Positions 3,842 through 22,015 of a stretch of 64,000 nt of DNA are shown piece by piece. The DNA comes from Gymnopus androsaceus JB14. Its lineage: Eukaryota > Basidiomycota > Agaricomycetes > Agaricales > Omphalotaceae. The stretch spans positions 1 to 64,000 of the forward strand of contig ML769512.1 of NCBI GenBank assembly GCA_009733575.1, given 5' to 3'. The notes beneath the pieces were generated by a model. The model had not been told where the DNA came from and made no database searches. It saw nothing but the letters and a program-made list of their open reading frames with translations. Position 1 is the stretch's first letter, and each line of letters begins with the position of its first letter. A program made the translations under genes and the position numbers.

Positions 3842-4198
3842 AGGACCCCTGATAATACCGCTAGAGCTCTGATCCCGAATGGTTGGAATTTGGCCCTTTT
3901 TCATGGCCCAATTTGGGGAAAATCTGGCCTTTTGCACCATCACTGCTCTGAAAATTTCCATTCTTGGCCCTTTCGGGTGTCATACCTCTGATACAAGAGG
4001 TATCAGATTCCACAGATTCTCATAGCTGTTGGCTAGGGGGGGGGTCATGAGAACTGATGGTTGAATAGCGGCCTGAGGTCTGGGCCTGACATTCATGCTC
4101 TACGTGTGCTGCGAGAATGAAAAGTTGGTGAAAATAATGCTCCGCAGTAAGCTAGAGTAAGTGCATCCTCACAACATATCACCCAGCTAGTCCCAATG

Positions 4199-4258
4199 CA
4201 ATAGACCTTGCAGTCCCATTACAATGGGACTCGTATTTTACGGTCGTGGTCCGTTACA
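4199..4258 (+). repeat. Left terminal inverted repeat of KDZ element
   Basis: Starts CAATAGACCTTGCAG and ends GTGGTCCGTTACA. It pairs with 20701-20760. The inner part, GTATTTTACGGTCGTGG onward, is identical in both ends. From about 4248 a roughly 115-bp segment is duplicated in tandem (4248-4367 and 4368-4480). Confidence 0.75.
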
Positions 4259-4560
4259 TCGTTCCTCGTAAACCTACGAGAGTCCTATTATACCTCCCGT
4301 CGCAGTCTGAGTCCTATGTCCCCATTTAATTGGAACGTCCTGTTATGCCCCTTCTATCCCATTCTAATGGTCCGTTACATCGTTCCTCATAAACTTATTA
4401 TACCTCCCGTTGCAATCTGAGTCCTATGTCCCCATTCAATTGGGACGTCCTGTTTATGCCCCTTCTATCCCATTCTAAGCCCCATGTCCTATTATACCTT
4501 CCTGTCCTATTATACCTTCCTGTCCTATTATACCCTTCTGTCCCATTCTCTCGATTTATG
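4259..4560. repeat. Subterminal repeats of KDZ element
   Basis: Contains a tandem duplication of GTCCGTTACATCGTTCCTC. A run of TGTCCTATTATACC, TGTCCCATTCTC and TGTCCCATTTCC follows. The same TGTCCYATT core recurs near the other end and in internal intergenic gaps, so these may be transposase-binding or shared control sites. Confidence 0.55.
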
Positions 4561-4746
4561 TCCCATTTCCACTCCCGAGTCCTTGCGCCATACACGGTCA
4601 GAAAGCAAGCTTCGTATTTCAGAACTAGTATAGCTAATCTAATCTTTGGCCACTTCAAATTCATCATCGTCATCTTCCAGCTCGACATCAAGGCTTCCAG
4701 TTGGAATCTCACTCCCTCCGTCCAAGTATACAAGTACTCCGCGCGC

Positions 4747-7700
4747 TCAAGCACGTATCGGTAGCCACTCCGCCTCCCATACTTGCGCTCGTTCTTGTTC
4801 AATGGCACTTTGTTCCCTCCCATAAGCTTCAAGACCATCCCTAACCTCTGCATTGACATTTTGACGAAGAGACACCTGCTTTAACCACCAATCTGCACGC
4901 CATTTAGTAAATGCAACAGCACGACCCATCTCCTCATCAACAAGCTCAAGCTCTTCCCGATAGCAATGTGCTCTTGCACAAGCTTTGCACCACTCAACAC
5001 GCAGACCTGTAAGATTTTATCAGAACCGTAGACTAAAAAAAGGCGAGTTGCTGCCTACTTTCGTTAACATTATCCTCCAAAACCTCAGAACCTGATGCTG
5101 TATACCAAATCCACGATAATGTCTGCTTGGACTGACCTAATGCGAGAACGGGGTCAAATTCCACAGTTGCCATATTGGATAAATTATCATTAAGCATTTC
5201 GTCAACTTCTTCGACTGACACCCCAGCTTGAATTTGCGCTGCGCGTAGCACGGCCTTCTCTTCCTGACTAAGAGCCCGTTTGCTGACGCTCCGTACGTCC
5301 GAGCCTTTCAGCTCGCGGTACACATTCTGCCAATCGCCGGGTCCCCGTAGGGTAAGACAGCACTTTCGGGCATTCTCATACTGCGTTCTGAGAAGCCTGA
5401 TACGGAGCTCAATTGTTTGTTGCAACTCGCAAGACTCTGTCCAATGCTTGTGACCGATTGCTGTTCAAGATGTGTGCATGTAAGCGACCTGGCGAGTGCG
5501 AAGTTGAGCACGAAGCTTGGAAAGAATTTCTGCACACTGAGCTTCTTGGATCTCGTCCTCGATCTTGCATAGCTCTGGGATCCTTTCCCGCAGTGCAGTG
5601 TCCAATGAGGAAGGCAAGATGAGTGATATCTTTTCAGGAGTTGATCGGTCAATACCTGGCATTTCCTTGAGCAGACGCGTGACAAAAGGCATGTAAGTGG
5701 CTTGAGTATCACGGATACGGCTAATGCGGCGAATGAGACTGGTTCTCCGTGTCTGAATATTCTTTTCCTTCATCAGACCTTTGGACTTCGTGTTGACATC
5801 ACAATCCAGAATTTGCCTTAACAATAATCAAATAATGGAAGGGAATAAATAAAACAGCGAAATACTCACTGGTATCTTTCAGCCTCAATCAGATGTAACA
5901 TCAGGTCTTCACGCGACTCCATCAGTCCCTCATCGTCATTTTCACTGCCTTCAACTGCAGAGGTGCGCTTTCGTTTTGCATATTCTCTCCGCAACTTTGC
6001 AAGGGTTTGTTCTGTGTTCTCATCAGATAGATTCATCGAACCGAAAACACGTGAGAGTTCATACCTGACTCCGGGAGATCAAAGGGACATGGGATAGACT
6101 CGTCCTGTGGATTCAGTTCCCAAGCAGATACCTGCTCTTCCCATAGAGAGACGAGGTCCGAATGATTGACACGTAATCCTTTTGTAAACGCTTCGAATGC
6201 CCGATGATGAATGATTGCCCATGGTATTGCACTGACCATTTTCTTCTTGAGACTCGTACCTAGTACTGTTAGACAATGATACATAGAGATGAAAAATTAA
6301 AGACCTATGCAAGTCCAATGTCTTCGACCAATTCCAATAGTTACAAAAATCATTCAAGGCATCCCATCAACCACCCGCACGCATCATTGATACAGACGGA
6401 GCGATTGAATTCAGCCACGACCATTGTCGCTCTACACCTTCTCCATCGGTCACTCCACTTTTTGGTGTGTAGTTAAATGAGAAACGCGGTCGACATTTCG
6501 CTATATGACCTACAAGGTGTAGCTTTAGAATGCGAAACCAAATAGTGCACCAGTCCGGTATTTGAAGGCCATCGGGCATAGTATCCATCCGCGGAAAGAA
6601 GTTCCGATACCACTGGCAAGCAATATCATATGAGACAGTGACCATGAGTAGGAGTGTGCTTGCAAGGACCGTTAAGATAATGTAGTCCATCGGAGCATAC
6701 CTGATCAACCGGCTGTTATTAGTAGCACCTTATACTGAGTTGTATCCATTACTCACGCTTCTCCCTTTACCAAATCGCCCAAGCAAAGATAGCTCTCATG
6801 TCGGGAGCAGCTACAAGCACCAAGACCCTGACTTCTACAGCCTTTGTGCCGTTTACCATTCGCTTGCTCAATGCTACTGAAACTAGAACAGCGGCTGATC
6901 TGATATCTAATAAGAATGGGCGGCTTCCAACATAGACTTGATAATCTCTCACCTCGTTCTGATCCTTGACTGAATTCAAGTATGTTGAGTACTTCACCTG
7001 ATCGACAAAAAGACCAAGCCCAGGAGAAAGCTGCGGATCGGTATCATCATGCTTGCGCTGGCGGGCTTTTTGTTTGAAACATGCATCTTGACCGACAAAA
7101 AGAGAGTAAAGCCAACTATTGAAACATCAGCCAAGGTCAAACTCATGAACTTTCAAGAACGTACCTCTTTGATGGTGGAGCATCTTGCCAATTGTTGGGA
7201 AGATTGATATTGGGATGGGGACATGGTCTGCATTGAACAATCAGACTTCGTGGCGCTGTTTCTCGGATGCCGGTGGGATCATGGCCTCGACAAAAACACT
7301 TGAATTCCTTGATATTTCGCCACTGACGTAGAATAAGCATGAATTGAGCGAGTCGATCCTGAAAATGCGAGTTAGGCTGAACGTAATAGAACAATATGGA
7401 GGTGGCTTACTGGAGGTCGATGCAAACCAGTTCCATCAGTCAGCTCTTTGATTGCCCGATAATAGTCTGTAGGACTGAGATGGCCTCGAAGATTAATGAC
7501 ATGAAAGCGGCGTAACACATTAAAAGTTGCCACAGTCTGAGGCTCCTGTGCAGTTGAAGGCCACCATCCTATCTCCAGAAGCTGGGCATCATGGTTTGGC
7601 GAGTCTCAACATCCACAGTAGGCAATTGCCACACTATGCAGTGCATCACCGTCAATCACCATGAAGTTGGTGTGACCGGCTTTGGGTGCAGTGCAATACT

Positions 7701-8411
7701 GCCCTGGTATGTGGCCCAGCTGATATCTAAGACTGAGCAACCGTAGGGAGACCTTGATAAAGTAACCGCAACTGGAATCCCATTTCTGTTTTTGCAATTA
7801 GTAAAGATAATTCATTGTATATTAATTTTGCTCGGCTTACCTCGATAATGTGCAATGGTAGGGATGAGTGTGTGCAAAGTAAGCATTCCTTGCAGTAAGG
7901 ATACCCGCCACTACAACTGATACAACGAAATAATTCTCCGTCACTGGCGTTGCATTTTGAGCAAAGGTTGTTTCTGGCTAACCAGACTCAACCACGGCCT
8001 TCATATTGTATATTAAAATCGAGATATGAGTCCCTGGATTGGAAAATCCAGGTCAAAAGGGGTGCATCCTATGGATATACTATAAGTAAATCGAACAAGA
8101 TCTCTTGGTGAACAACCTACCGAGTTTCGATACCGTTTCGCTTTCATCTTAACAGAAATTCCTGCATCTTGTTCGGCCTTTTCAATAGGATCGAGTTTAA
8201 GATCACCAAGAAGGACTTCCAAGGGTGTATTGGAAGGGGTGGCATAGTTATCGTCTGTGTCGTGAAAAGCAGCAGATGTTATTCGGCGAGAACGTAGTGA
8301 AGACCCAAAAGCTATAGAGTGCCCGGAGGGTAAGGAGGTAGATACTGCTTTATTTGTAACCTCACTGTAAGAGTACACTGAAGCACCACACTTTTTCTTC
8401 CTGGACAACAT
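4747..8411 (-). pseudogene. KDZ transposase with CxC2-like zinc cluster, in-frame stops
   Basis: A multi-exon gene read from 8411 down to 4747. The N-terminal exon (8411-8121) is basic and serine-rich. Exon 8068-7841 carries the cysteine cluster (CSKCNASDGELFRCISC, then CKECLLCTHSSLPLH), and exon 7795-7411 completes it with HSVAIAYCGC and QLLEIGWWPST. This is the CxC2-like domain that precedes KDZ transposases. Around 6890-6750 is SSFSSIEQANGKRHKG. Around 6700-6370 is the catalytic core: SYDIACQWYRN, KLHLVGHIAKC and TDGEGVERQWSWLN. The C-terminal half is helical (about 5824-5040) and ends with LRVEWCKACARAH..WLPIRA before a stop at 4747. Introns are 45-60 nt. In-frame TGA codons occur at 7990-7988, 7608-7606, 6369-6367 and 5467-5465. 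At least the second and third sit where CGA would fit, so this copy is probably inactive. Confidence 0.8.
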
Positions 8412-8454
8412 AATGCAGTATTGATTCGAGTTCAGAAGAAACAAACGAGACATG

Positions 8455-8627
8455 GTGATGGGAATATCGGCCCGGATCTCGCTGTGTCTGATTTCAATGT
8501 CACCTTGTCGTGTCTGATTTCAATGGAACTCATCCTGCTGTGTCTTATTTCGCCGAAACCCATCTTGTCGCGTTTATCTCACCACTCTAGTGGTTTCCCG
8601 CTCGCTCAAAAGCTTTAAAGGACACAA
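8455..8627. promoter_or_regulatory. Putative shared promoter between KDZ gene and cargo gene A
   Basis: The divergent gap between the KDZ start and the 8628 gene. It has three related phrases, GTGTCTGATTTCAATG, GTGTCTGATTTCAATGG and GTGTCTTATTTCG, which match the motif found in other intergenic gaps of the element. No TATA box was identified. Confidence 0.35.
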
Positions 8628-9395
8628 ATGGGCCCTCTCTGTAATTGCAGGCTTTACTCGTATCTCACTCGCTATATGGATCTCCAGCTTTCGCAGCGTA
8701 CCTCCTCCTCTGCCACACTTCTCTCAGATGAAAACAATGCTTCTGAAACCAAAACCGTTGTGTCTGAACAAGAATATGCAATTGAGTCGGGACACCAGGA
8801 ATTCCGCCAAATTTGTAATTATGTGCATACACTTATTCTTGCTATTTTATTTCTTCTGGCTCATATATCAACAGGCATCAGTACTACATCCGGCAAAGAG
8901 GTTCATTTTTCCCAATACTACTGCTACTACCAGCTTTCCCATGATTCATGTCCTTGAAATCGACGTATATATCTCCAGTTTATTGCTCAAAACAGAACTT
9001 GACAGCTGTATCTAGGATATCATGGCACCTCAGAACACAAACGAATCAGCCGTGGCTATTATACAAGGCCTCAATGTCGGATACTTTGAATCTTGGTATG
9101 TTAAACCATTTATTGGGCTAAGTATCTAGTATGCTGATGACTCTTCACTTATAGGACTCTCGCCTCTGAACATGTCCGTGTCACTGGTGCAGTGTACTCT
9201 TTGCACTCAACACTCCGAGAGGCCCGAATCTGCTATATGCAGGCTTTAGTTGGGGGGGAGGTCTGTTTTATTCACGACAATGGGTTATCGGAGTCAGCAG
9301 TTATGGCGGATATCCCGTTGGGGCAGAGTATGAGGTCTTGGTGGCATTGGTGCTGGAGAGACAATCACCTACCTATACCATCTATAGAACCATAG
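8628..9395 (+). CDS. KDZ cargo gene A (unknown-function family)
   Basis: Predicted exons 8628-8814, 8882-8964, 9016-9095 and 9155-9395 join in frame to give about 196 aa. The start could instead be the ATG at 8676. The N-terminus is acidic and serine-rich. The conserved part carries RFIFPNTTATTSFPMIHVLEID, then AVAIIQGLNVGYFESW, then YSLHSTLREARICYMQALVG, and ends with WWHWCW. A paralogue at 19674-20445 shares this whole order, an 80-nt third exon and the same intron phases for the last two introns. I do not recognise a known domain. Conservation of both the protein and the splice sites between the two copies argues that it is a real gene. It lies directly divergent from the transposase gene. 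Confidence 0.72.
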
Positions 9396-9589
9396 TCGCT
9401 CTAATATTTTTTGCTCTGTCTTGCTCTATAATAATCCCTGCCTGTCCAATTTACATGTTGTCTGAATTCCTGTCCTAGGTTCTTGTTTGATTTCTCTTAC
9501 TTTCGGAAATCGATTGGACTTGTTTATACTGAGCAATTTGAATGATTAATGAAAGGCAGCGAGCGAAAATCTAGCCCGGCCAGGTGTGA

Positions 9590-9745
9590 TTTGGACAAGG
9601 AATTTGTACGCAACAAAAGAAATTAGGATACATACTTATTGGACATGGAAATAGGACATATCATGGATTTCGGACAGGTATAATTCAATTAGGACAGATG
9701 GAAATAGGACAGGTATAGTTCAGACAGCGAAATCGGACAGAATTC
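9590..9745. repeat. Intergenic cluster of AATAGGACA motifs
   Basis: Between the convergent 3' ends of genes A and B, GGAAATAGGACA, ATTTCGGACAGG, ATTAGGACAG, GAAATAGGACAGG and GAAATCGGACAG appear within about 110 bp. They are the reverse complement of the TGTCCYATT motif at the element ends. Confidence 0.5.
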
Positions 9746-9869
9746 TACCAAAAGAATTCAGACGTCTATAGTTATGTCAAGAAAGTTGATTTTATGTCAA
9801 ATGATTCAAAACTGTACAACATATGTTTAAACTATTGCAGGTACGCCATCTCAAGCTTGACCTTGAGCT

Positions 9870-12775
9870 TTACCTTGACTTCCGCAAACCTCCTCGATTA
9901 TCACAAGCTGCAGTTACTCTACCTTGACCTCGACCTCGAGCTTTACCTTGACCACCACCTCGATTATCCCGGTCATATTTTGTACCTGTTGGTACCATAC
10001 CTGGAAACACTTGAGGCGGATGCCTAATCCGACTTCCTTCTACAGTCGGAGCAAGGTCAACACTTGCCTTGCGTTTTCGCTTCCGCGTGACATCTGTGTC
10101 TGGGGCGACTACAGGGTCATGAGATGGCGTGGTGGTGGAGTCACTTTGCGCAACATCTGTAGCTGGGGCGACTACAAAGGCAGGGTCATGAGATGGTGTG
10201 GTGGTGCCGGAGTCACCTTGCGCGACATCTGTGTCCGGGATGACTAGCTGCTGCACATACGAATTTATAAAGGCAGGGACATGAGATGATGTGGCAACGC
10301 CGGAGTCATCTTGTAGAATAGTTTGAGCAGACTCATGAGGCGGCAGTGCAATGAGTGTGAGACTCTGAGCATTGACGGACGTGTTCATCCCAGGAGAAGA
10401 TGTGGATGTAGAAGAGGATATAGCAACGCCTTGTCCAGGTGCGAGTATGGATTCAGAGGGTAGCCAATTTATTATATTGGCAAAAAAATCTACTCGATAA
10501 TTTAGTATGAGAGTCGAACCAGATCGGCATAATAAAATTTGGACGTACTTTTGTCTTCTTCACTCGGTATCCACCCAACGCCCCCTCCATGGTCTTCATT
10601 GTAAGATTGAGTATGAGTGCGAACCCAATCGTCAAGTCCTCCGCTGGAACTACCGAAGTACTCCCCACCCATTCCTACAACAGAATCTTCCATGCCACCA
10701 TCTTGCCCAGCATTGTCGATGTAGTTTCCTTGTTCGGACGGCTCAAAACCTGTGTTCAGAGCGTTATTGCAGAGTTGCTGCAACATCTCATCGAACAAGC
10801 CGAAGTCAATATTGGATATGAGCTCTTGTCCTACAGTATTTCCTGGCGCAGCTCCCAGTCCAGCCAAGACAGTATGATCTGTTTCTGTCAAAGGTGTGGA
10901 CTGTGCATTGGCAAATGTAGGCTGAGCAGGAAGAGTGGATGCAGGCTGAGTTAGAAGGGTCGTCAACAAAAACTGAGCTGGAAGAGTGGACGGTGCAGGC
11001 TGATCTGTAAGGGTGGACGACAAAGCCTCATCGTCAAAAGTCACCGATGAAGGCTGAGCTAGAAGGCCAGTCGAGATTGGCTGAGCTGGAAAAAATGTGG
11101 ATGGTGCTGGCTGAGGTGTAACAATGGTTGAAGCATTGCTGGACTCGGCAGCCGCGATTCTATTAGTCTCTGCCTCCGACTGAGTAGAGGAACTAGTTGC
11201 AATATCGATCGAAGTTGCAGTATCGATTGAAGTTGCAGTACTGATCGAAGTTGACTTGGTGGCTGTGACGCTCTCGGGCCGACCCGCGGTCTTGAACGCC
11301 ATACCTCTTGCTTCACAAAACTCAACAGCTAATAACGGTAAGTATTCAGTCCATTATATTAACGTGTTACTCACAAAATCGCTGCTCAGCGAAGGTCTTC
11401 AGGCGTCCGTGAATATATGCATAGCCTTCGGGATCCACGTCTGCGTACAATCTGGAAGGAGAGGTCGTGGAAGTAGAAGCAGTTGATACAGGTATATCAC
11501 AACATGACTCGCAGCTATAAACCCCTTAGACTGGTAAAAACTCATAGAATCTTCAGATAGATACACACCTTGCCACGTCAAGCCTACCCTCTTTTTCCCC
11601 GACTGGTCCGAAAAGGAATACTAGACACCCCATGCCAAACAAACTCGCTATTGCTTGGACAACGATTGGGAGCACCTGTTTTCGATTATGCCAAGAACTG
11701 ATACTCATGAGCACGATGGAATTCAATGCAAATTGACACTTACTGGTTTGCATGCGAGTGTTCGTTGTCGGTTTTATCATTGAGCCTTGTTGCCTCCTCA
11801 AGTTCCTGTGAGAGCTGTTCGACCCAGTGCGAGCGGACATCCTCTGGCATCTCCTCAAACTTCCGCTTCTTGAACTCTTTTACTTCCTTTAGAAATACTT
11901 TCTTGTCCACCCCATCTGGATGTTCGGCCTTAAAAACATCTCTGAGTTCGGGTGACCAGTGCCACTTTCCATACTCAATGGCTGGGTCCTTTACACGGCT
12001 CGTTGATGGCGACGGTTTTGCGCTAGACTTCAAGGCATTGATTACGCCCTTTACTAGACCCTTCTCGGCAGTCTTCGAGTTTCTGAAGTTGCGAGACCAG
12101 TTTGAGAAAAACTGGGATGCCCTAGTGAGTAAAATGTGTTCATCGCATGCGGAGTTGATTTACTTACTTCCTCAAGCTTTCGATCATAGGCCAATCAACG
12201 AGTGAGCTCTCTGTTTTGTTCAGACTCTGGATAGTCATTTACTGAGTACGGCAAGTAATTGACATCGGGATCAGGTTCTTGCTCCAATGCCAAGTTTCGA
12301 CCAAAACGTTCGACAAAGGAAACCACCATCTAGCACGACACTTTTGCATTAGCCATAGGTTTTGTTAATAGCGAACTGAATTTTACCGCTCAATATTTGC
12401 CTGTATGCATCGTATCAACCTCTTGCAACTTCGCGGCAACAAATTCAAATTTTGTCGGTGCATGATAAAATGTATTTTTCTTGCCCGACTTGATTGCAAC
12501 CCCTTCTTCCTTGAGCCTATTCCTGTTCTTCGTCCTAGCATCTGCTTCCTTTCTTTTGCGGATGGTTTCTCGCTCAGCTTCATCCAAGATTTCATCCTCC
12601 TCATTTTTGGTATTTTTATCCAAATTGGACAGAGCTCCCGGGGCGCTCTGATACGCGGAGCGGCGTTGATTTCACTGCTTGATGTACTGGCTGGAACAGC
12701 GCAAGTGGGTACTAACATGCTGAATGGTGGGCTAGGAGTATTGTTGGACTGTGGATGAGCAGGAGTAGATGGCAT
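9870..12775 (-). CDS. KDZ cargo gene B, multi-exon conserved hypothetical
   Basis: The supported downstream exons are 12121-11744, 11697-11569, 11451-11375, 11328-10549 and 10489-9870. All joins keep frame across short GT..AG introns. The upstream part (12775 to about 12260) contains a basic stretch (EAERETIRKRKEADARTKNR) and VERFGRNLALEQEPD, but its exact splicing is uncertain. The middle has a lysine-rich region (KEVKEFKKRKFEEMPEDVR), then NRKQVLPIVVQAIASLFGMG, then LYADVDPEGYAYIHGRLKTF. This W-N-R plus FG..V/L..GP layout resembles a common uncharacterised basidiomycete protein family. The C-terminal half is a long low-complexity Thr/Ser/Pro/Gln region, then a basic KRKRKAS patch and an Arg/Gly-rich tail (GGGQGKARGRGQGR) suggestive of nucleic-acid binding. 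Function unknown. Confidence 0.65.
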
Positions 12776-12889
12776 CGGCTGAGTCTAGGTAGTGGAGCGA
12801 GAGACAGAATGGGTAGCCACTGCAGGTTTTTGTCTACAAATCAAACTTTTAGATTCAACCGCAACGACGGGATTTATGTTTTGTTAACT

Positions 12890-14535
12890 GTTTGAACGTC
12901 AATCTCCATTCTACGATTCGATCTGACGAGTGAGGACAATCAAATCTGACAAGACAAAACCATCAAAGTCAGACTTCGCCAATTTCCTCCACTTTAAGAA
13001 ATCTTGTACTTCTTGGAAAATTCACAGTAGTTTTCAACGGTCCACATGTTTGATCTATCATAAAATGAATGCTATTCAAGCTAATGCAGCTGCAAATGAT
13101 TCAATCTGACGACAGATGAAACTATCGAAGTCGGACTAAAGTACCAACTTGAGTACTTACTGTACCGATTTCCTCCACCTCAAGAATCCTCGTATTTTTG
13201 GAAATTACACAGTAGTTTGCAATGGTTCAAATGTTTAATATCTCATAAATCAAAGCTCATGAAGTTGAGAACAATTCGATCTGATGACAGGCGAAACGGA
13301 CTAAAGACCAACTTGAGTACTTACTGCGCCGATTTTCTTTATCTCAAGGGTTCCCGGATTTCTGGAAATTTTCACGGTAGTTTGGAATGGTTTAAATGTT
13401 TGATATACTATAAAATGAACACGATTCAAGTTAATGGGGCTGAGAACGATTCGATCTGACGACAGACAAAACCATCAAAGTTGGACTAAAGACCAACAGT
13501 TGAGTACTTACCGCGCCGTTTTTCTTTATCTCAAGGATTCTCGGATTCTGGAAATTTTCACAGTAATTTGGGATGGTTCAAATGTTTGATATAATATAAA
13601 ATGAACGCGATTCAAGCTAATGGAGCTGAGGACGATTTGATCTGACGACAGACAAAACCATCAAAGTTGGACTCAAGACCAACATTGAGTACTTACCGCG
13701 CCGTTTTTCTTTATCTCAAGGATTCTCGGATTCTGGAAAATTTCACAGTAATTTGGGATGGTTCAAATGTTTGATACAGTATAAAACGAACGCGATTCAA
13801 GCTAATGGAGCTGAGAACGATTCGATCTGATGACAGACGAAACCATCGTTGGACTGTTGAGTACTTACTACCTCGATTTTCTTTATCTCAAGGGTTCTCG
13901 GATTTCTGGAAATCTTCATGGTAGTTTGGAATGGTTCAAATATTTGATATACTATAGAATGAACGCGATTCAAGCTAATGAAGCTGAGAACGATTTGATC
14001 TGACGACAGACGAAACCATCGTTGGACTGTTGAGTACTTACTACCTCGATTTTCTTTATCTCAAGGGTTCTCGGATTTCTGGAAATCTTCACGGTAGTTT
14101 GGAATGGTTCAAATATTTGATATACTATAGAATGAACGCAATTCAAGCTAATGAAGCTGAGAACGATTCGATCTGACGACGAACGAAACATCAAAGTCGG
14201 AAGACCAACTTGAGTACTTACTGCACCGATTTTCTTTATCTTAAGGATTCTCATATTAATGAAAAATTTTCAGTAGTCTGTAACAGTCCTAGAGTTTGAT
14301 ATTCCATAGAATGAACGCTATCTAAGGCAAGAGCTGAAAACAATTCAATCTTACAGACATAGTCAAAGTAATAACATCAGTACTTACCTTCCATCCCTCC
14401 AAAATTCTAGTATCTCTAAGAAACCTCGAAGTAGTTCGCGATGTCTCAGATACTCGATATCCCATAAAATGAACACTGTCATGAAATGAACAATGTCCAA
14501 GGGAGAGCACGATTCGATCTGACAACAAATGGGAA
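12890..14535. repeat. Tandem array of 165-187-bp units with splice-like signals
   Basis: About nine imperfect units. GAGTACTTAC or a close form recurs at about 13151, 13315, 13502, 13687, 13859, 14032, 14212 and 14379. GATTYGATCTGACGACAG recurs once per unit. Read on the minus strand, each unit has an acceptor-like CTGTCGTCAG/ATC and, about 130 nt later, a donor-like GTAAGTACT. Units encode a repeated peptide (SDRIVLSFISLNCVHS..) on the minus strand, but two exon-like segments measured are 130 nt and one is 131 nt, so it does not hold a long frame. The array lies just upstream of gene B on its strand and upstream of gene C on the other. Confidence 0.75.
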
Positions 14536-14585
14536 ATGATGATCGCATATGTTATCCTCTAGTCTTCCTTCTCATAACCATTAAC

Positions 14586-15695
14586 ATGGCTCCTCCAAAG
14601 CTCTACAAGACGGCGGCAGACAAAAAGGCGGCTAAGAAGGCTAATTATAATAGGTACTACAAAAAGTAAGCCAACAATGCAGTATATGTATCATATTTCA
14701 CCAAGTCAATGATTATTGACCACAGACATAAAGACTCAATCAACCACAAGTGTCGCAGTCAATATGCTCAGAATGAATATCTACATAGTAAAATTCACAG
14801 TCAACAGTGTGTATTTTATATCCTTCGTGCCCTTATTGAAGTGTCGAGACTTTCACTCAGGAGTAAACCGAAGAAGGACGATACAAAAGCTTCAGTATTT
14901 CCGGGACCTTTCACAATGTTTGTACATATTCTTCCTCTCTTTACTTCGCCTTCGGCTCAATCTCCAACAATAGATCAAAAAGTTCCAGCGCTATGAAGAA
15001 CCCTGACAATTTGTCCGAAATAAAGAAATCGATGTATGTTTTTCAGTTCAATCTGTTGTTCTTTTGACTTCAATTGAATGTTCTGCAGTATGACTGTCTC
15101 TCCCATTTCCCAGAAAGATATTCCAGCGACTCCAACCCTCACTTTGATTGTCCAGAAGGATGTACCGACTCCCGCTTTACTACCTGCATTCCCAATTGCG
15201 TGTTCAAAGACATGCAAAAAAGTCTCAAAAGCTTCTCTTGCAACACCGAGCATTCCCAAATCACCCGTTTGTCAGCGGCCTTCTTCCTGCATCTTAATGC
15301 AACATCATTCGAATACCACTGGCGAATCTCTAGGCCTTAGACTCGCCAAGCAGAGCATAGAAGCATTATACAACAGTTATGTTGCAGGCTTGGGTGGATC
15401 TTGGCCGCATTTCTTTGATAGGCTCTCAACTTCATTCATTGACACTGACAACTCCGACGAAATTGATGAAGCCTTCGATGACAACAGATGGTCTGTGGCT
15501 CTTATGAAGAAGAGATTTAATTTACTGCAGGCCGAGGCTGTTCTGGTGGGCGATCATTTAGCAATACAGGAAGGACGGGGGATGCTTGAGCGCATAGAGG
15601 AGGTGGGAGAAAAGTTGCGGGAGTTCTATTGGGCTACACTGCATGGAAGCGAGGACTTCAAGGAGCAGGTGGTTGCTGGACATTTAGTATGGTAG
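14586..15695 (+). CDS. KDZ cargo gene C, basic N-terminus, unknown function
   Basis: Exon 1 (14586-14665) encodes MAPPKLYKTAADKKAAKKAN and ends YNRYYKK before a GTAAGC donor. Exon 2 from 14726 continues HKDSINHKCRSQYAQNEY. This lysine-rich RYY.KHK..IN..R..Y opening recurs in hypothetical proteins of mushroom genomes and looks like a nucleic-acid-binding helix. The middle exons (about 14780-15033) are uncertain. The last exon (about 15090-15695) is long and open, with a Pro/Thr/Lys-rich segment followed by a globular acidic region: SIEALYNSYVAGLGGSWPHF, DNRWSVALMKKRFNLLQAEA, and EDFKEQVVAGHLVW just before the stop. No known enzyme motif was seen. Confidence 0.55.
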
Positions 15696-15784
15696 ATTCA
15701 CTCTTTCCTCTGTTTGACTATCAAAATACCAGTATGCCAATGCTACGCGGTCGCTTTTTGGTTACATATCAAAACCAAACATAG

Positions 15785-15885
15785 TCTCATTATATTGGGA
15801 CAGGAGTAATGGGACAAGAAGATTGTATGCCGGTGGCTATTATCTCATCTAATTGGGACAGAGCTCTGTAATCGGACACGAATAT
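15785..15885. repeat. Intergenic TGGGACA motif cluster
   Basis: CTCATTATATTGGGACAGG, AGTAATGGGACAAG, CTAATTGGGACAG and GTAATCGGACACG lie just 3' of gene C. They are related to the subterminal repeats of the element. Positions 15890-16290 beyond it hold no supportable gene; the ORF on the minus strand there looks like chance. Confidence 0.5.
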
Positions 15886-16292
15886 TGTAGTACGCATATG
15901 CCTATTAAAATCAAAGAATCAGTATTTTTGTAAATCTCAGATGTAAACGTAAATGTCGTAATTTCCGTTAGTAGATAGCCTCGTTAAACAGGAGTAAACT
16001 TTTCATAACAGTTAAACGCGTTCAACACCGCTTGACTGTAAGTATACTGGAGAGGCCATTGAACCTTGTTAAATGCATTCAACGCGAACTATTTGAAGAC
16101 GCTACTAATCTTGTCAAGACGCCGTTTAACGCGTTCAACGTGCTTTGAACGCATTGAACTGTTCCTTCCAATGACCCCCCTACATTCTCATATCCTTTGT
16201 TTAACTGAGATTTTAACGGGTTAAACCGCATGCTTGAGAATCCCAGTAGTAAATAAATGCATTGCATGAGAATTAGCGAGAAAAAGACTCAC

Positions 16293-16595
16293 TGAAAAGA
16301 ACCCTACCCGGAAAGCCCTTAAGAACGGCTTCGTGTTTCAAAACTCCAGTTGTACGGGCAGACACTCTGGTGACAGTGCACATTGAACGACGAACCACAC
16401 TCAAAATTCTGGTCAACGGTACTAATGAATCATGAGCAAACAGATTGTAAATTTGAGATGCTTGACATACTAAGTAGTTTCCTTGCTGTCAACCCTGGTC
16501 ATTTTCGGTAAAGCTTCGTTGCCACCCTTCTTGCCACCAACGTTGGGAGATGAAGTTGGACCTTGAAGAGACTTGTGCAACTGGCTTGTAGGCAT
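16293..16595 (-). CDS. Possible cargo exon pair, unrecognised
   Basis: A start at 16595 reads MPTSQLHKSLQGPTSSPNVG and ends KMTRVDSKETT at a GTATGT donor near 16472. After a TTAG acceptor, a second open segment reads PLTRILSVVRRSMCTVTRVS and ends GFPGRVLFS before a GTGAGT donor at 16293. Frame across the first intron is uncertain. Further exons were not found. It may be a remnant of a cargo gene. Confidence 0.25.
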
Positions 16596-17214
16596 TCGTC
16601 GTAGTACTAGACAAGATTTGATTTTGTGAAGACATCTAAAGCAATTGGAAGACTTACTAAAGTCCAAGCGAAAGGAAGATGAAAGAGAGAGAGAAAGACA
16701 AAATGGTCTAACAAAAAGTTTAGTTGACCCCCTCGTGTTTAACGGAGTTTATTGTGTTACTGCCGTTAGGGCTAGCCCTAACTTGAGGAAGATGCCCTTC
16801 ATGTCGCCCAACTCACTGGGCTGTTGGTTAAGGTTAGGTGGTTTAGTGTAATGGGTGAGTATATGGTTTCCAGGCTTCAAATAGCCTTTGATTACATCCG
16901 AGATTTACCAAGATACTATGAGCTCAAGATTCCATCACCGTCTCATTATAATTGGGAAGGGACTGCGTAATAGGACAAGATACATATTGGAGTGAGATGT
17001 GCTTTCTGGCGAATGTACCGGAAACTTCAAGTGATGATATATACTGGAAAGGATGAAAATGTCAGTAAGGATTGGATTTGTAGACGTAAAGCATAAGTGA
17101 GCATTCACCAGAGTCAAAACTAAGTCATACGGTTGTCATTATGGCTGTGATAGTGAGATCGTTGTCTGGAGTAATGTTATTAAGAAAGAAAAGAAAGCAG
17201 CAGGGAAGATCAGC

Positions 17215-17713
17215 GTACCCGATTGAGGAAGTTGTCTGAGGAAGATTTGGTATGCCTCTTCGAAATCACCCGGCGTAACGCTTTGGCAACAAATTTCTTG
17301 TGTTTTGTGACAAGGTTTAGGAGCAGCGACCCCAAGTGCTAGCGGTGTATCGAGGAAGTTGGGGTTGGTGGTTAATATAGCAGTGATTCGAAGGTTATAG
17401 CCTGGTAAAGCGTTAAAGCAGGTTCAAGCTGAAAAGAACTTGAAAGACCTGATCGAGAAACCCTCTTGAGAAAGTCTTCAACTACAACTTCCAATGCGGC
17501 ACGAATCATATTTTGGCAACGAAAAACAGGCATGTTTTCAGGAAAGGGATAAAGTTGCATCAGCACCAGCTTGTGTTTAAGTATCTTTGTTACAGTCTGC
17601 ATCATTGAATTGAGACACAGTCTAGATTGAAATAGGGACAATGACACATCACGATGCATTAAAATGGAACAGCTAAATGGGACAGCCGTTCGATTCCGAG
17701 CTACAAGTACCAT
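17215..17713 (-). CDS. Possible cargo gene fragment, unrecognised
   Basis: A minus-strand open stretch contains MQTVTKILKHKLVLMQLYPF, then RAALEVVVEDFLKR. A second open segment in another frame reads GYNLRITAILTTNPNFLDTP and then DFEEAYQIFLRQLPQSG, ending at a GTACGC donor. The first part loosely resembles the uncharacterised DUF6532 layout, where a hydrophobic LYPF-type helix is followed by an AA-rich helix, but this is a weak match by eye. The join between the two frames was not resolved. AATGGGACA motifs lie at about 17640-17690, upstream. Confidence 0.3.
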
Positions 17714-17842
17714 TGGACAAACGTAAATATCAACAATGCTTAGTCTCGTTGCGGAACTGACGGAAGCGATGGGGATTGTAACCAGTACATGTTAAATAAT
17801 TTACTAGTTACAGAGTGCGCTACTCCCTCAATCATATGTACT

Positions 17843-18530
17843 TCAATTGACAATGCGGACTACTCCTTGCGCCGCTGCTTGCTGATACGCCTGCAGGGCT
17901 GCTGCTTGTGTGGAATAACGCTTGTAACAGGCACCAGATACCCCGCTAACTTGCGTCTGCATGTAGGCGCTACAAATGAAAGAATACTCAGTTCATTGTC
18001 GCCTGAAACAACCAGATCAGAAACTTACAGGTCACTGAAAACCCCGACAGACTTGCCAACGGTGACAACGTAATGTATGTCGCTGTTTGGGATAATGTTG
18101 ACGGTGCCACAGGAAGTGCAGATGATGAAGGGAGGTGCATTGAAGGAAGCCATCGCTTACGGTGGTGCATCATTAGCAGAGGTCTGACAGTAGATGAGAA
18201 ATATTTACTAGATGCCATTGCTGCTTGGTCTGTGGTAGTGGTAGCTGGTGAAGCTGGAGCCACAAAGGGTAAGTTAGCAGATACGTTGCAGCTGAAAATT
18301 GGGAAGTGAGGCTCACCGGGGCGGGTAAGTAGATCATGAGTCAAAGGAGCAGCAACGACGGGAGCTATGTTGGGAGGGCCTTGAGGGAGTAATTAGCAGG
18401 CAAAGCAAGTACAAGAGTCCCTATACGTACCAGGTTGGCCTCCTGCTTGCTCCAGGTACTCAACTGCTGCATAGATTTGAGCAGGGGTGAATTCTTGAAT
18501 AATATTACAGGCTTGTTTGGTTTGAGTCAT
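17843..18530 (-). CDS. RNase H1 N-terminal (viroplasmin-like) domain protein
   Basis: Five exons (18530-18431, 18379-18317, 18253-18209, 18155-18029, 17969-17843) join in frame to 153 aa. All introns are GT..AG, and the fourth (53 nt) has a CTAAT branch site. Residues 1-33 form an amphipathic start (MTQTKQACNIIQEFTPAQIY). The middle is Pro/Thr-rich. A CTSC pair sits near residue 82. Residues about 97-143 read HYVVTVGKSVGVFSDL, then VSGVSGACYKRYSTQAAALQ. This is the compact fold found at the N-terminus of eukaryotic RNase H1, where it binds RNA:DNA hybrids and double-stranded RNA; basidiomycetes have many stand-alone copies. No catalytic RNase H domain is present. The gene sits inside the giant KDZ element, divergent from the 18743 gene. 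Confidence 0.72.
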
Positions 18531-18742
18531 TGCGAGTGTGAGTTGAAGTTTGTTAAGACCAGTATTCCATGGATGATATTTAAGTATGTCTTATCAGTGT
18601 CCTCATTCAACCGTACGTACTACATTGTACTAAATGGACACCTAGTGTCCCTTTCCATGGTGTGTCCCATTTCAACGGACCGTTCCTCAACCAGTCAAGA
18701 TATGTTTTTTTTTCGTTTTCAAATGTATCGTTGTTTCTAATA
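18531..18742. promoter_or_regulatory. Divergent intergenic region with TGTCCC motifs
   Basis: Between two divergent cargo genes. It carries CTAGTGTCCCTTTCC and GTGTCCCATTTCAACGGAC, the latter resembling the repeats in front of the transposase gene and at the element ends. Confidence 0.35.
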
Positions 18743-19369
18743 ATGGATGAAACAATCCTTCAAGAGCTATATCGCATCTATTTCGAACAATATCCTACAC
18801 AGGCAGTTACTAATGAAGAGCTCGGAGATACGCGGGGATTTTCAGCTGAGGCAATTGCTGATACGAGATGGTTCAAGGAGAAACTGGTCATCGAGAGGAC
18901 CAAAGAGGTAGGAGTATTTCTGGATCAGAAAGTGTGATTACTGAGTCAATGTACATTGTAGGGACTGAAGGAATGGCTATCTACCATGGAAGGGGTCACA
19001 GACCTTGACACCATAGCCCAAGCAATGCCAAAACTGGACGTTGTCCCTGCTCTTGACTTTGATTTACAAGAATGGGCGATAAAGGTTGCAAACTTCATCC
19101 ATCATCCGCCATGTTCTGCCGAGGACCCTAACGACATGGTCTTTAAACCTCTCTTGTCGGATGCATATTCGATGACGTTTCATCATACCATGCAAGGTGA
19201 AGATCAATGTATATATGATCACGAGAATGGAAAGGGAAAGGAGAGCAATATTGCAGCTGATTTGCAAGGGGAACGTTCTAGTAGACGGGTTCGTTTCAAA
19301 GCCTACCACGGAGAGCCTGAAACGTTGAGGGAACAGAGGACGCGAAAGCTGGAGGAACTTGCGAGTTGA
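18743..19369 (+). CDS. KDZ cargo gene D, 190-aa acidic protein
   Basis: Two exons, 18743-18907 and 18962-19369, are joined across a 54-nt GTAGGA..TGTAG intron in phase 0 and encode 190 aa. The N-terminal part (MDETILQELYRIYFEQYPTQ, then GFSAEAIADTRWFKEKLV) is helical and acidic. The second exon opens GLKEWLSTMEGVTDLDTIAQ and ends in a charged tail containing SSRRVRFKAYHGEP and REQRTRKLEELAS. No known domain was recognised, no signal peptide, and no membrane segment. The clean two-exon structure and a motif-bearing divergent promoter support a real gene. Confidence 0.6.
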
Positions 19370-19673
19370 AAGCTATAGAAAGACTGTTGTTGTATTGAAT
19401 ATGAAAGGGCACTCAAAGGACAAAGCGATAAGTAGTGATCGATCAATCAATTCAAAGGACAAAGCATTCAGTCGATAGATTACACAGCGCAATCTCGGGA
19501 CATCGCAGAGAGAGGTCCCAATTGGAAACCGCCGAGATCATACACTGATCGATCAATTCAAAAGGCAATCACAAGAAAGCGGAACTAATCACGGGTTACA
19601 GGTGGAATTCTTTTCAGTACAGGTACAGTAATAATTCAATGAACGACAAATTGAATAAGTATTTCTGGACAGA

Positions 19674-20445
19674 CTACTGCAACAGGTTAACAGTGGGTAC
19701 GGGAAGATTATCATCCTCATCCCATGAGCTCCAGCACCAGGTCCACCACTGGCTAAAGGTTTGATTCAGGGGAATAACGGGCAGAACAGCTAATTCAGTC
19801 AGCCCATCAGCGTCCAGACGACACACTTCTCTTCCAACTAGTGCCCGCATATAGCAGATACGCGCATCGCGGTAAGAATGATGCAGAGAGTATATTGCTC
19901 CAAGGACTCGAACATATTTTGAGGCCAATTCCCTATATCGGGTAAGTGAAGCCGTTCTGTGAAACATGAGAACACTCACCATGACTCGAAGTATCCAACT
20001 TGTACACCTTGAATCACAGCAACTGCGCATTTTGTGGGACTTGGAGGCTCAATTATGTCCTATCCAAGTATCAGGTAAAGCGGCATCCGAGACTTAAGTT
20101 CAGTACATACATCAAAGTCAAGGACCCTGATCATAGGGTAGCCAGTTGTCTCGGAGGTTTCTCCTAGGATAAACCTCTCGGAAGGACGCACTACAGACTG
20201 CTTCTATTAGTGGAGAAGTAGCCAGATCATTCTGTACTAGTACTCACAGTGTTATGCGGAGAATCTTGCTGAAAGTATTCGTATTTGCGTTTGTACTTGT
20301 CATCATAGCTGTTGTGCGAGTCGCTATCAGATTCGGAGTCTACCTGTTCAGAGTCAGAGCCCGAGTCGTTGTCGGAGGAAACTATCATGAAGTCTGGAGA
20401 GAGAGTAGATGGACTGGAAGTATCCTGCAAACGTTCACGCTTCAT
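19674..20445 (-). CDS. KDZ cargo gene A', paralogue of the 8628 gene
   Basis: Exons 20445-20248, 20197-20111, 20059-19980 and 19932-19674 join in frame to 207 aa. An upstream ATG is possible but lies within the terminal motif repeats, so 20445 is preferred. Exon 1 is a Ser/Asp-rich acidic segment (SDNDSGSDSEQVDSESDSDS). The conserved part reads RPSERFILGETSETTGYPMI, AVAVIQGVQVGYFESW, YSLHHSYRDARICYMRALVG and QWWTWCW. It matches gene A block by block, and the intron positions around exon 3 (80 nt in both) are the same. No known domain. Finding two diverged copies in opposite orientation near the two ends of one element suggests an important element function, but this is inference. Confidence 0.72.
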
Positions 20446-20509
20446 TTGATAGCTGGAAGGGTGGAGGTTGGGATGAGGATTGGGAATTAGGATGTAATCG
20501 AGATCAGCA

Positions 20510-20690
20510 ATTCTTGAAAAAGGCCCATTAGAATGAGACAGCGAGCTCATTAGAAAGGTATGAGTGACCATTATAATGGGACAGGCACAGGAGAGCTCGT
20601 CAATGAGACGAGGACCCATTACAATGAGACAATTGTCCCATTATAATGAGACGAGGGTCCCATTTAGAACGGGACAAGGAACGTGAACTA
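20510..20690. repeat. Right subterminal repeats of KDZ element
   Basis: Contains CCCATTAGAATGAGACAG, CCATTATAATGGGACAGG, CCCATTACAATGAGACAATT, TCCCATTATAATGAGAC and TCCCATTTAGAACGGGAC. These are palindromic-tending copies of the motif at the left end. Confidence 0.55.
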
Positions 20691-20700
20691 CATGCAAACG

Positions 20701-20760
20701 TGTAACGGACCACGACCGTAAAATACAAGTCTCATTGTAATGGGCCTACATGGTCTCCTG
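20701..20760 (-). repeat. Right terminal inverted repeat of KDZ element
   Basis: The reverse complement starts CAGGAGACCATGTAGGCCC and ends GTGGTCCGTTACA, matching 4199-4258 at 53 of 60 positions without gaps. Confidence 0.75.
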
Positions 20761-21299
20761 CCCAATGTTCAGCGATTCCGACCATTGTGATCATTGAGGC
20801 CTTTTGAGACCCAGACAGCTATTCACTCATCTGTCTCACAACCTAGCCGACGGCTATGGAGATTGGTGAAATCTGATACCTCTTGCTCTGCTAAGTTAGT
20901 TCTCTGCTGTTTAAGTGTTTTCAGCCCATTTTGGCCTATTTTGTCTTATAATTTCTGCAATTTTAAGTAGATTCTGACAGACATTCAAATATGGGAACAC
21001 TTCGTCGCCGGCAATAAGCCCTCTACCTCAACATCTCCCTTGCACTTTCCAAGACGGAATTGATATGCAAGAATCTTCTGAACAGGGTTTTCGAGGATCA
21101 TTATGTGTGATGTAAAATCCAAGAAATCGGCCCAAAATTCAACCTGGTCTCCGATCGGTCTTTTTTGGACTTTCTTTACACTAGACCTACCATCCAAAAA
21201 GGGCCGAAATTCGGCCTTTGGCATGATAGATTGCCTCTAAATTTGGCCAAAATCCGGCCTTTTGGGATCAGAGCTCAAGCAGTATTCATCAGGGGTCCT

Positions 21300-22015
21300 G
21301 TTTTGCGGCACACATGGCGGCGGATGATCTGTCTGAGAAGTTGTTTGTTATTGTTATTTGGAAGTAAAAGTTGACTACTTTCACTTCCAAATAACAACAA
21401 TAAACAAAGTTGCTTGCATACTCTTCATATCCATCTGTATTTTCAAGCTGCAATTGCAGAGGATAAGACACTGAAACTATGGACTGGCAGGGTAGGAATA
21501 TGTACATATTCTTGCTTTTGATCTTCTAAATATCATTCTGAGCACAGACAACATACTTATCTTCTGTGTCTGGGACTCTGGGAGTTACGAACAATATGCT
21601 GCCTGAGCAACAAACAGCTCAGAGGGAACATAAGTATCTGCTTTCTGGTGAAACAGAAGCAGATTTTATGGTGTTGAAGCAGCAATTCCTCAATGACGCT
21701 GATCTGAGTGCTTGTTTTCTCCTTTTTCTTTTATGAAACATTGCTGAATCTAAAAACAGAGAAGAAGTATCATTACAATTCACCCAAAGATGAAATTAAA
21801 CATATTAAACCCATCTATAAAAGCAAACCCCATTTTCTTTTGACTCCTGTGTACTCTACAATGATTGCAATCCATCTCCTCCCAAGGGCCTTGCTCTCCA
21901 TCCCAATCCAGTCACCATTCCTGATCCCAAACCATTACTCTTTCCTTGTGCACTGGTATATAAGCTTAACAGAGAGCAAGACTGGCAATATTTTTGAGGC
22001 TACATCTACTCAACA
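21300..22015. other. Gene-free stretch with a hairpin
   Basis: No supportable gene. An inverted repeat at about 21341-21414 pairs TTATTGTTATTTGGAAGT with ACTTCCAAATAACAACAATA around a short spacer. Confidence 0.4.

Follow-up and report, generated by a model that had tools for sequence, protein, structure and literature searches.

A 16.6-kb KDZ DNA transposon with six cargo genes in the mushroom Gymnopus androsaceus

The window analyzed here, a 64,000-nucleotide stretch of Gymnopus androsaceus JB14 (contig ML769512.1), contains at positions 4199–20760 one KDZ DNA transposon of 16.6 kb. We are highly confident of the following: the element is one insertion whose ends are exact and flanked by a 7-bp target site duplication (TSD); it carries a KDZ/CxC2 transposase and six integral cargo genes, which are under purifying selection and retain their order and orientation in two complete but diverged copies; and short non-autonomous elements related to it share its ends. 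It is a DNA transposon of the cut-and-paste type, belongs to the KDZ superfamily and, by its 7-bp TSD and CA..TG termini, may be called Kyakuja-like; the name KDZ reportedly goes back to Iyer et al. in 2014. The features of the element are as follows.

4192..4198, no strand: left copy of the TSD, CCCAATG, found as a single copy in the related empty sites on contigs C866 and C868
4199..4258, + strand: left terminal inverted repeat (TIR), starting CAATAGACC, 53/60 matches with the right end
4755..8411, - strand: KDZ transposase gene, about 14 exons in the gene model, with CxC2 cluster and KDZ domain
8651..9395, + strand: G2, cargo gene for a putative RNase H1-N-like protein, paralogue of G8 (gene models, pN/pS, profile match)
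10176..10977, - strand: G3, candidate low-complexity reading frame without gene support, with relatives on C272, C510, and C60
11375..12329, - strand: G4, cargo gene with exons conserved in C191 and C272, no known domain
13010..14326, no strand: tandem array with a repeat unit of about 173 bp, between the divergent G4 and G5
14547..15692, + strand: G5, cargo gene (BT96DRAFT_996633, P0010), no Pfam domain
16011..16706, no strand: nested repeat outside the core of the family, with copies on other contigs of the genome
17210..18530, - strand: G6, cargo gene for an RNase H1 N-terminal (PF01693) protein, domain exons at 17861–18155
18743..19369, + strand: G7, cargo gene (BT96DRAFT_941613, P0003), no Pfam domain
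19674..20512, - strand: G8, cargo gene for a protein with an acidic N terminus and a putative RNase H1-N-like domain, paralogue of G2 (gene models)
20701..20760, - strand: right TIR, ending GGTCTCCTG
20761..20767, no strand: right copy of the TSD, CCCAATG

Both the 60-bp TIRs and the 7-bp flanking direct repeat of the original prediction are present. The TIRs (4199–4258 and 20701–20760) match at 53 of 60 positions, which has a chance of ∼2e-16 when all position pairs in the element are allowed for. Among random pairs of 60-mers from the window (up to 200,000, with pairs less than 200 bp apart or matching at 50 or more positions set aside), the best match was 32/60. The element terminates in CA..TG and is flanked by CCCAATG at 4192–4198 and 20761–20767. 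An empty site with a single CCCAATG between the joined flanks, as had been proposed for a check, is indeed found on C866 and C868, exactly at the junction; they represent paralogous copies of a repeat, with identities of about 90% and 88%, and not alleles. The predicted size of 16.6 kb stands with the ends at 4199 and 20760, although it counts in a small nested insertion (part of 15.7–16.8 kb). Here, the stretch 16272–16706 has copies of 84–88% identity on C146, C60, C118, C293, and C137, and 16011–16268 has copies of 68–85% on four of these contigs, whereas C364 and C191 hold just a short spacer between G5 and G6 at this position.

The predicted KDZ transposase was recovered as a spliced model, which matches the KDZ domain PF18758 (E=5.1e-44, positions 1–201 of 217) and the CxC2 cysteine cluster PF18803 (E=5.2e-34). 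Its C-terminal exons and its intactness are uncertain. The KDZ domain, the CxC cluster, and the defined ends with a TSD of ∼7–8 bp place the element in the KDZ superfamily. By analogy with the family, the transposase would excise and insert the whole unit via the TIRs. Its coding frame is conserved between copies, with a pN/pS of 0.17–0.31 in frame and 0.73–1.89 off frame.

The same comparison with off-frame controls shows that the six cargo genes G2, G4, G5, G6, G7, and G8 are under purifying selection, so that the prediction of at least six cargo genes holds. In 21/21 comparisons of the transposase and these six genes, the in-frame pN/pS was below that of both other frames. The values are 0.23–0.27 in frame and 1.04–1.54 off frame for G6, 0.28–0.40 and 0.64–1.46 for G8, 0.36–0.41 and 0.69–1.45 for G7, 0.46 and 0.42 in frame and 0.61–1.53 off frame for G5, and 0.43–0.51 and 0.75–1.10 for G2. 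G4 is the weakest of the six (0.46 and 0.54 in frame, 0.62–1.70 off frame), with one comparison close to its control (0.54 versus 0.62). The borders of G4 are uncertain, and G4 and G3 may be a single gene. G3 is not supported as a conserved gene: its in-frame pN/pS of 0.71 lies next to off-frame values of 0.70 and 0.81 and carries no coding signal. Three Pfam or structural similarities were taken as chance, namely that of G7 to a Rab-like chain (E=0.03), that of G4 to a MORC2 chromo-like domain (0.006), and a Hexokinase_2 match in two of eight G2/G8 family members (best 4.5e-4). Repeats related to the ∼173-bp array occur in C364; a search of C191 for the array found none.

A second complete element of 15,605 bp lies on C191. 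It has its own TSD and diverged TIRs, and the order and orientation of its transposase, G2, G4, G5, G6, G7, and G8 are identical to those of the window element. The remaining copies are partial. C272, which covers the left end through G4, and C364, which covers G5 through the right end, carry the same outer 7-mer, GTAGTTG, but are two contigs that may not form one element. C52 holds the right end, G8, G7, G6, and G5 in order; joining it as a right half to C554 as a left half was rejected, as their flanking 7-mers differ. The pS to C191 is 0.61–0.74 for all seven genes, alike for transposase and cargo, and that to C272/C364 is 0.31–0.47. Exchange between elements at G2 was considered and dropped: the pS of G2 to C272 is 0.47 at the corresponding place, and a value of 0.66 appeared when the search could pick either paralogue of the G2/G8 pair. 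The relatives are partly decayed, as judged by in-frame stops in the aligned blocks (C191, eight in KDZ and one in G2; C272/C364, eight in KDZ and five in G4, G6, G7, and G8 together; C554, one and two; C52, three in G7; C76, one in G7), some of which may be intron sequence.

That two separate elements enclose host genes caught between their ends, the alternative offered with the original prediction, is exceedingly improbable. It would suit the repeat-rich flanks and the occurrence of such ends elsewhere without cargo, but, barring misassembly of both, it fails on the empty sites with one TSD and on C191, where the same cargo order is enclosed by independent ends with an independent TSD. Synonymous divergence to C191, which is equal for cargo and transposase, and the few relatives in the protein search also argue against it. 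In the host genome, a 102-bp query from the left end matched at 32 places, counting left and right ends. Ends without transposase and cargo, which had been expected to speak against a single element, do exist; where both ends were fetched, they bound short non-autonomous derivatives, each flanked by a TSD of its own. Such derivatives with the same ends are normal for a DNA transposon. The TSDs of the nine elements with both ends fetched were perfect 7-bp repeats in seven, a perfect 8-bp repeat in one, and a 6/7 match in one. Cargo outside such ends, the other observation expected to count against a single element, was not seen for G5 and G7 in the host genome, bar one weak G5 match: the six contigs with G7 matches all hold copies of the element, and G5 matches four of these besides the weak match elsewhere.

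It is also very unlikely that a smaller KDZ element served as a landing site and that some of the cargo stems from other transposons nested inside it. Insertions into these elements do occur, as seen from the repeat that lies nested between G5 and G6 of the window copy, a 21-kb interruption of C272 with a KDZ match inside, a repeat common to C272 and C364 at their break, and a short element on C23 with retrotransposon-like reading frames (judged by eye). However, C191 and, as far as they reach, C272, C364, and C52 share the order of the six cargo genes, and these genes have diverged along with the transposase. A genome search with G5, G7, and G8 revealed no cargo gene standing by itself between terminal repeats and a TSD of its own.

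Half of the cargo genes encode or resemble one fold, the RNase H1 N-terminal domain, which binds RNA–DNA hybrids. The predicted RNase H1 N-terminal protein is G6, which matches PF01693 with E=8.2e-10 (39.2 bits, Pfam cut-off 21), as do its copies on C191 (1.1e-8) and C52 (6.5e-9). The predicted paired paralogues are G2 (8.65–9.40 kb, +) and G8 (19.67–20.51 kb, -). These inverted paralogues probably contain a diverged RNase H1-N domain. The window copies of G2 and G8 stay below the PF01693 cut-off without a match, and one of eight family members reaches E=0.067; a G2/G8 profile aligns to RNase H1-N with P=8.6e-5, and none of 200 column shuffles scored as high. The best match among 177,635 PDB sequences is the N-terminal domain of yeast RNase HI (E=0.28, not significant alone; next match, E=1.3). 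In the G2/G8 tree, one branch (99/98) splits the G2s from the G8s, and the same two subfamilies of elements recur within each group (support 81–96). In this genome, six of nine PF01693 loci sit 3.2–5.1 kb upstream of a listed KDZ domain on the same strand, an association that may be inflated by transposon clustering. The domain accompanies KDZ transposases of more than one type, with CxC2 in the window element and six loci lacking a listed CxC2 match nearby.

The accessory genes probably benefit the element itself and not its host. Adaptive cargo of the Starship kind, which would benefit the fungus, is unlikely: it would also result in purifying selection, but Pfam revealed no metabolic, resistance, or effector domain in the cargo, the set is identical in both complete copies and not a changing one, and the RNase H1-N domain also occurs beside other KDZ transposases. 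Moreover, relatives of G5, G7, and G8 in the protein search are limited to this genome and three “lgn” records (P0005, P0009, and P0011), with no homologues among the hits from other named fungi. We favor nucleic acid-binding cargo that would act for the element. The RNase H1-N-type domains of G2, G6, and G8 might bind RNA–DNA hybrids or dsRNA produced from the element, and in this way shield it from RNA-directed silencing or regulate transposition, which we consider plausible while leaning slightly against it. According to the accessible text on CaMV P6, deletions that abolish silencing suppression lie in domain D-I and not in the RNase H-like region (PMC3836500), and we downgraded the analogy to RNAi suppression by P6 because that activity maps to another domain. 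It is possible, if rather doubtful, that the RNase H1-N proteins are instead transposition machinery that binds DNA or hybrids at the ends and is unrelated to host silencing. Their presence with more than one KDZ type in this genome fits such a role, whereas KDZ elements of Cryptococcus move, and the accessible text mentions no such gene (PMC12810828).

The element is of a known kind, a Kyakuja-like KDZ element, and its accessory gene set appears new and nearly orphan. Starships share with it the character of a multi-gene fungal mobile element, but the present element is far smaller and its cargo does not differ between the two complete copies. The tyrosine recombinase of Starships is called the captain. 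These elements of Pezizomycotina are, in the partly accessible source, classified by that enzyme; Pfam scans of the element (E≤0.1) found no tyrosine recombinase, the only matches being KDZ, CxC1/CxC2, and a weak Cauli_VI. Among the closest known systems are Kyakuja-1_LB and Kyakuja-2_LB of Agaricomycetes, described in the accessible text of Kojima 2025 (PMC12730594) with a 7-bp TSD, 5′-CA..TG-3′ termini, and a TET/JBP dioxygenase gene accompanying the KDZ transposase. These have no TIRs, in contrast to the 60-bp TIRs found here; because this absence is stated for two families and may not define the lineage, we use the wording Kyakuja-like. The window element carries six other accessory genes and gave no Pfam match to TET/JBP in six frames of 9001–20760, the minus frames of ∼4.5–9.3 kb, and the plus frames of 4.4–8.9 kb, a scan that could miss very distant PE-type enzymes or intron-split domains. 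KDZ1–3 of Cryptococcus neoformans are likewise large KDZ elements with TIRs (about 9–11 kb; TIRs, 139–241 bp; TSD, 4–8 bp), but contain CxC1 instead of CxC2, and the accessible text mentions no comparable conserved cargo (PMC12810828). Of the predicted undescribed giant family, the gene set appears new, and “giant” is a matter of degree. A PF01693 gene, capE (viroplasmin/RNase H1 N-terminal), is also borne by the helpo1.3 copy of Pleurotus ostreatus, which is a Helitron and not a DDE element; its captured genes lie in one long copy, and the accessible text describes no conserved multi-copy set (PMC4289320). In the accessible parts of non-subscription literature (including PMC8290104, PMC9674265, and PMC6431247), no KDZ element with such cargo and no link between RNase H1-N and KDZ is described, a weak negative result.

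More tentatively still, mushroom KDZ transposons could have built a dedicated RNase H1-N accessory system, with three proteins here (two of them an ancient inverted pair) and one each next to other KDZ transposases, that would bind RNA–DNA hybrids or dsRNA arising at the element and counter RNA-directed silencing or license transposition, in a role equivalent to that of TET/JBP genes in other Kyakuja elements. Cut-and-paste DNA transposons usually carry a transposase and little else. Here, six extra genes were kept by selection while the two complete copies diverged until synonymous sites came near saturation; this suggests that they are needed by the element, and half of these genes share or resemble a nucleic acid-binding fold that also occurs beside other KDZ transposases in the genome. 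This makes testable what a transposon in mushrooms needs beyond its transposase, and whether it carries defenses against silencing.

The element at window positions 4199-20760 is one insertion. Its termini are CA..TG, the 60-bp terminal inverted repeats (TIRs) of the original prediction are confirmed with 53/60 identical positions, and the 7-bp direct repeat, CCCAATG, is present on either side. The chance of such an end match is ∼2e-16 with all position pairs in the element allowed for; random 60-mer pairs (up to 200,000, excluding pairs <200 bp apart or with ≥50 matches) scored 32/60 at most. We searched the genome (83.3 Mb in 934 contigs; C130, the contig of the window, has 183,111 bp) and found the left flank (window 3607-4198) adjoining the right flank (20761-21347) on contigs C866 and C868, with an overlap of exactly 7 bases. 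A 1172-bp target, built by script from the two flanks and a single CCCAATG, aligns end to end with C866 (90%) and C868 (88%), and the 7-mer is intact at the junction. The anticipated empty site with a single CCCAATG therefore exists, in paralogous copies of the target repeat and not as an allele; such copies occur because the insertion target is itself a repeat. This target (window 3607-4198 and 20768-21347) contains inverted segments (55 bp, 85%).

The interior holds the KDZ transposase gene, cargo genes, and two repeat blocks.
4755..8411, minus strand, KDZ transposase
8651..9395, plus strand, G2
10176..10977, minus strand, G3 (candidate reading frame)
11375..12329, minus strand, G4
13010-14326, tandem array (degenerate, units of ∼173 bp) separating G4 from G5, which are divergent
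14547..15692, plus strand, G5
16011-16706, separate repeat, between G5 and G6
17210..18530, minus strand, G6
18743..19369, plus strand, G7
19674..20512, minus strand, G8

The gene models form three divergent pairs (KDZ/G2, G4/G5, and G6/G7). A second complete element of 15,605 bp (C191:77351-92955) is flanked by the target site duplication (TSD) ACAAAGT and has diverged TIRs of its own, and its genes, KDZ (-), G2 (+), G4 (-), G5 (+), G6 (-), G7 (+), and G8 (-), are identical in order and orientation to those in the window. Among the partial copies, C272 extends from the left end through G4 and C364 from G5 through the right end; because both have GTAGTTG as the outer 7-mer, they may be halves of one element. 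C52 has the right end at 288795, followed by G8, G7, G6, and G5, and stops at 297,219, with too little room for a whole element. C554 carries KDZ and G2, with a left end near 6.4 kb, and is cut off by the contig start, and C76 and C926 have the right end, G8, and G7 beside a displaced KDZ fragment. Units related to the 173-bp array are present in C364, and a search for them in C191 found none. In C364 and C191, G5 and G6 are separated by a short spacer only; copies of 16272-16706 occur at 84-88% on five other contigs.

About 14 exons make up the transposase model, which matches PF18758 (E=5.1e-44) and the associated cysteine cluster CxC2 (5.2e-34), in agreement with the predicted KDZ transposase. 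For each gene, codons were aligned to the matching position in C191 and C272/C364, plus C52, C554, and C76 where present. Blocks picked by protein similarity are biased to low pN, and pN/pS was recounted in the other two frames of the same blocks as a control for this bias. In-frame pN/pS is 0.17-0.31 for KDZ (0.73-1.89 off-frame), 0.43-0.51 for G2 (0.75-1.10), 0.46 and 0.54 for G4 (0.62-1.70), 0.46 and 0.42 for G5 (0.61-1.53), 0.23-0.27 for G6 (1.04-1.54), 0.36-0.41 for G7 (0.69-1.45), and 0.28-0.40 for G8 (0.64-1.46). In 21/21 comparisons, pN/pS is lower in frame than in either other frame, which upholds the minimum of six cargo genes. G3 gives no coding signal in its one comparison (0.71 in frame versus 0.70 and 0.81 off-frame).

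Against C191, pS is 0.61-0.74 for KDZ and each of the six cargo genes; against C272/C364, it is 0.31-0.47 for KDZ and cargo. Because these values are alike for transposase and cargo, the whole set diverged together. Decay is partial in the relatives: in-frame stops in aligned blocks fall mostly in the transposase (C191, 8; C272, 8; C554, 1) and less often in the cargo (from 0 to 3 in any one gene of a copy), and some of these stops may be intron sequence.

A 102-bp left-end query has 32 genome matches, left and right ends counted together. Both ends were retrieved for nine elements, seven of which (C130, C117, C811, C8, C731, C23, and C191) have a perfect 7-bp TSD; that of C322 is 8 bp, and that of C134 matches at 6/7. 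C117, C811, C8, and C731 are 2.2-2.7 kb long and 90-98% alike over common parts. C322, C134, and C23 have their ends in common with the family; C23 is a short element whose interior, judged by eye, contains long retrotransposon-like reading frames. Ends do occur elsewhere without cargo, because the short elements with paired ends are non-autonomous derivatives, and the single-element view stands. At C12:324273-325015 and C43:247002-247732, C191-type inverted ends lie ∼0.7 kb apart; these are probably non-autonomous miniatures of the second subfamily.

G5 (C130, C191, C364, and C52) and G7 (C130, C926, C76, C364, C52, and C191) match the host genome within element copies, a weak G5 match on C178 aside. 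BT96DRAFT_941613 of Gymnopus androsaceus JB14 and the G7 protein share 99% identity. A search of 5.8 billion proteins found two relatives of G8, both from this genome, seven of G7 (five from the host genome, two with source 'lgn'), and four of G5 (three and one, respectively).

The predicted RNase H1 N-terminal protein is G6 (PF01693 at 8.2e-10; C191 copy, 1.1e-8; C52 copy, 6.5e-9). The predicted paired paralogues are G2 and G8, which lie near opposite element ends in opposite orientation and are split by one branch (99/98) in an 8-row tree. Both element subfamilies occur on each side of this split (support 81-96), and the duplication is therefore older than the subfamilies. The window G2 and G8 have no PF01693 score in the Pfam search. 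A G2/G8 profile matches the RNase H1-N profile at P=8.6e-5, and at P=1.8e-4 minus the C191 G2 row, with 0/200 column shuffles as high in either case. Among 177,635 PDB sequences, the top match is the N-terminal domain of yeast RNase HI (E=0.28), followed by an unrelated chain (E=1.3). G2 and G8 thus probably carry a diverged RNase H1-N domain.

A six-frame genome search, blind to domains split by introns such as that of G6 itself, gives 10 PF01693 matches at 9 loci. At least six of these (C406, C41, C145, C113, C614, and C346) have a KDZ match 3.2-5.1 kb away, in all six on the same strand and downstream; C6, C428, and C140 have none nearby among the matches listed. For random places (150 KDZ matches, 6-kb reach) the probability of six in nine is ∼8e-9, an optimistic value since transposons cluster. 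On C614, the two domains lie in separate reading frames ∼2 kb apart. Because no CxC2 is near any of the six among the matches listed, these loci adjoin another KDZ type. The host genome has at least 161 KDZ-domain and at least 119 CxC2 matches; KDZ elements are greatly expanded in G. androsaceus JB14.

The element is a TIR- and TSD-bounded transposon that encodes a KDZ transposase and accessory genes under selection, and it has non-autonomous relatives. As known for the KDZ family, it would move by cut-and-paste transposition; the accessory genes would serve the element, and the RNase H1-N proteins may bind hybrids or dsRNA at it. The viral PF01693 protein TAV/P6 of CaMV lowers the RNA-DNA hybrid signal in cells (PMC7102451), but its silencing-suppressor activity maps outside PF01693, to another domain (PMC3836500). 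TSD and termini resemble those of the Kyakuja lineage, whose families, as described in PMC12730594, have TET/JBP genes and lack TIRs, whereas the window element has TIRs. Of the undescribed giant-element family originally proposed, the novelty of the accessory set holds, but the element itself resembles a known lineage; we file it as a Kyakuja-like KDZ element, by TSD and termini, with a new accessory set.
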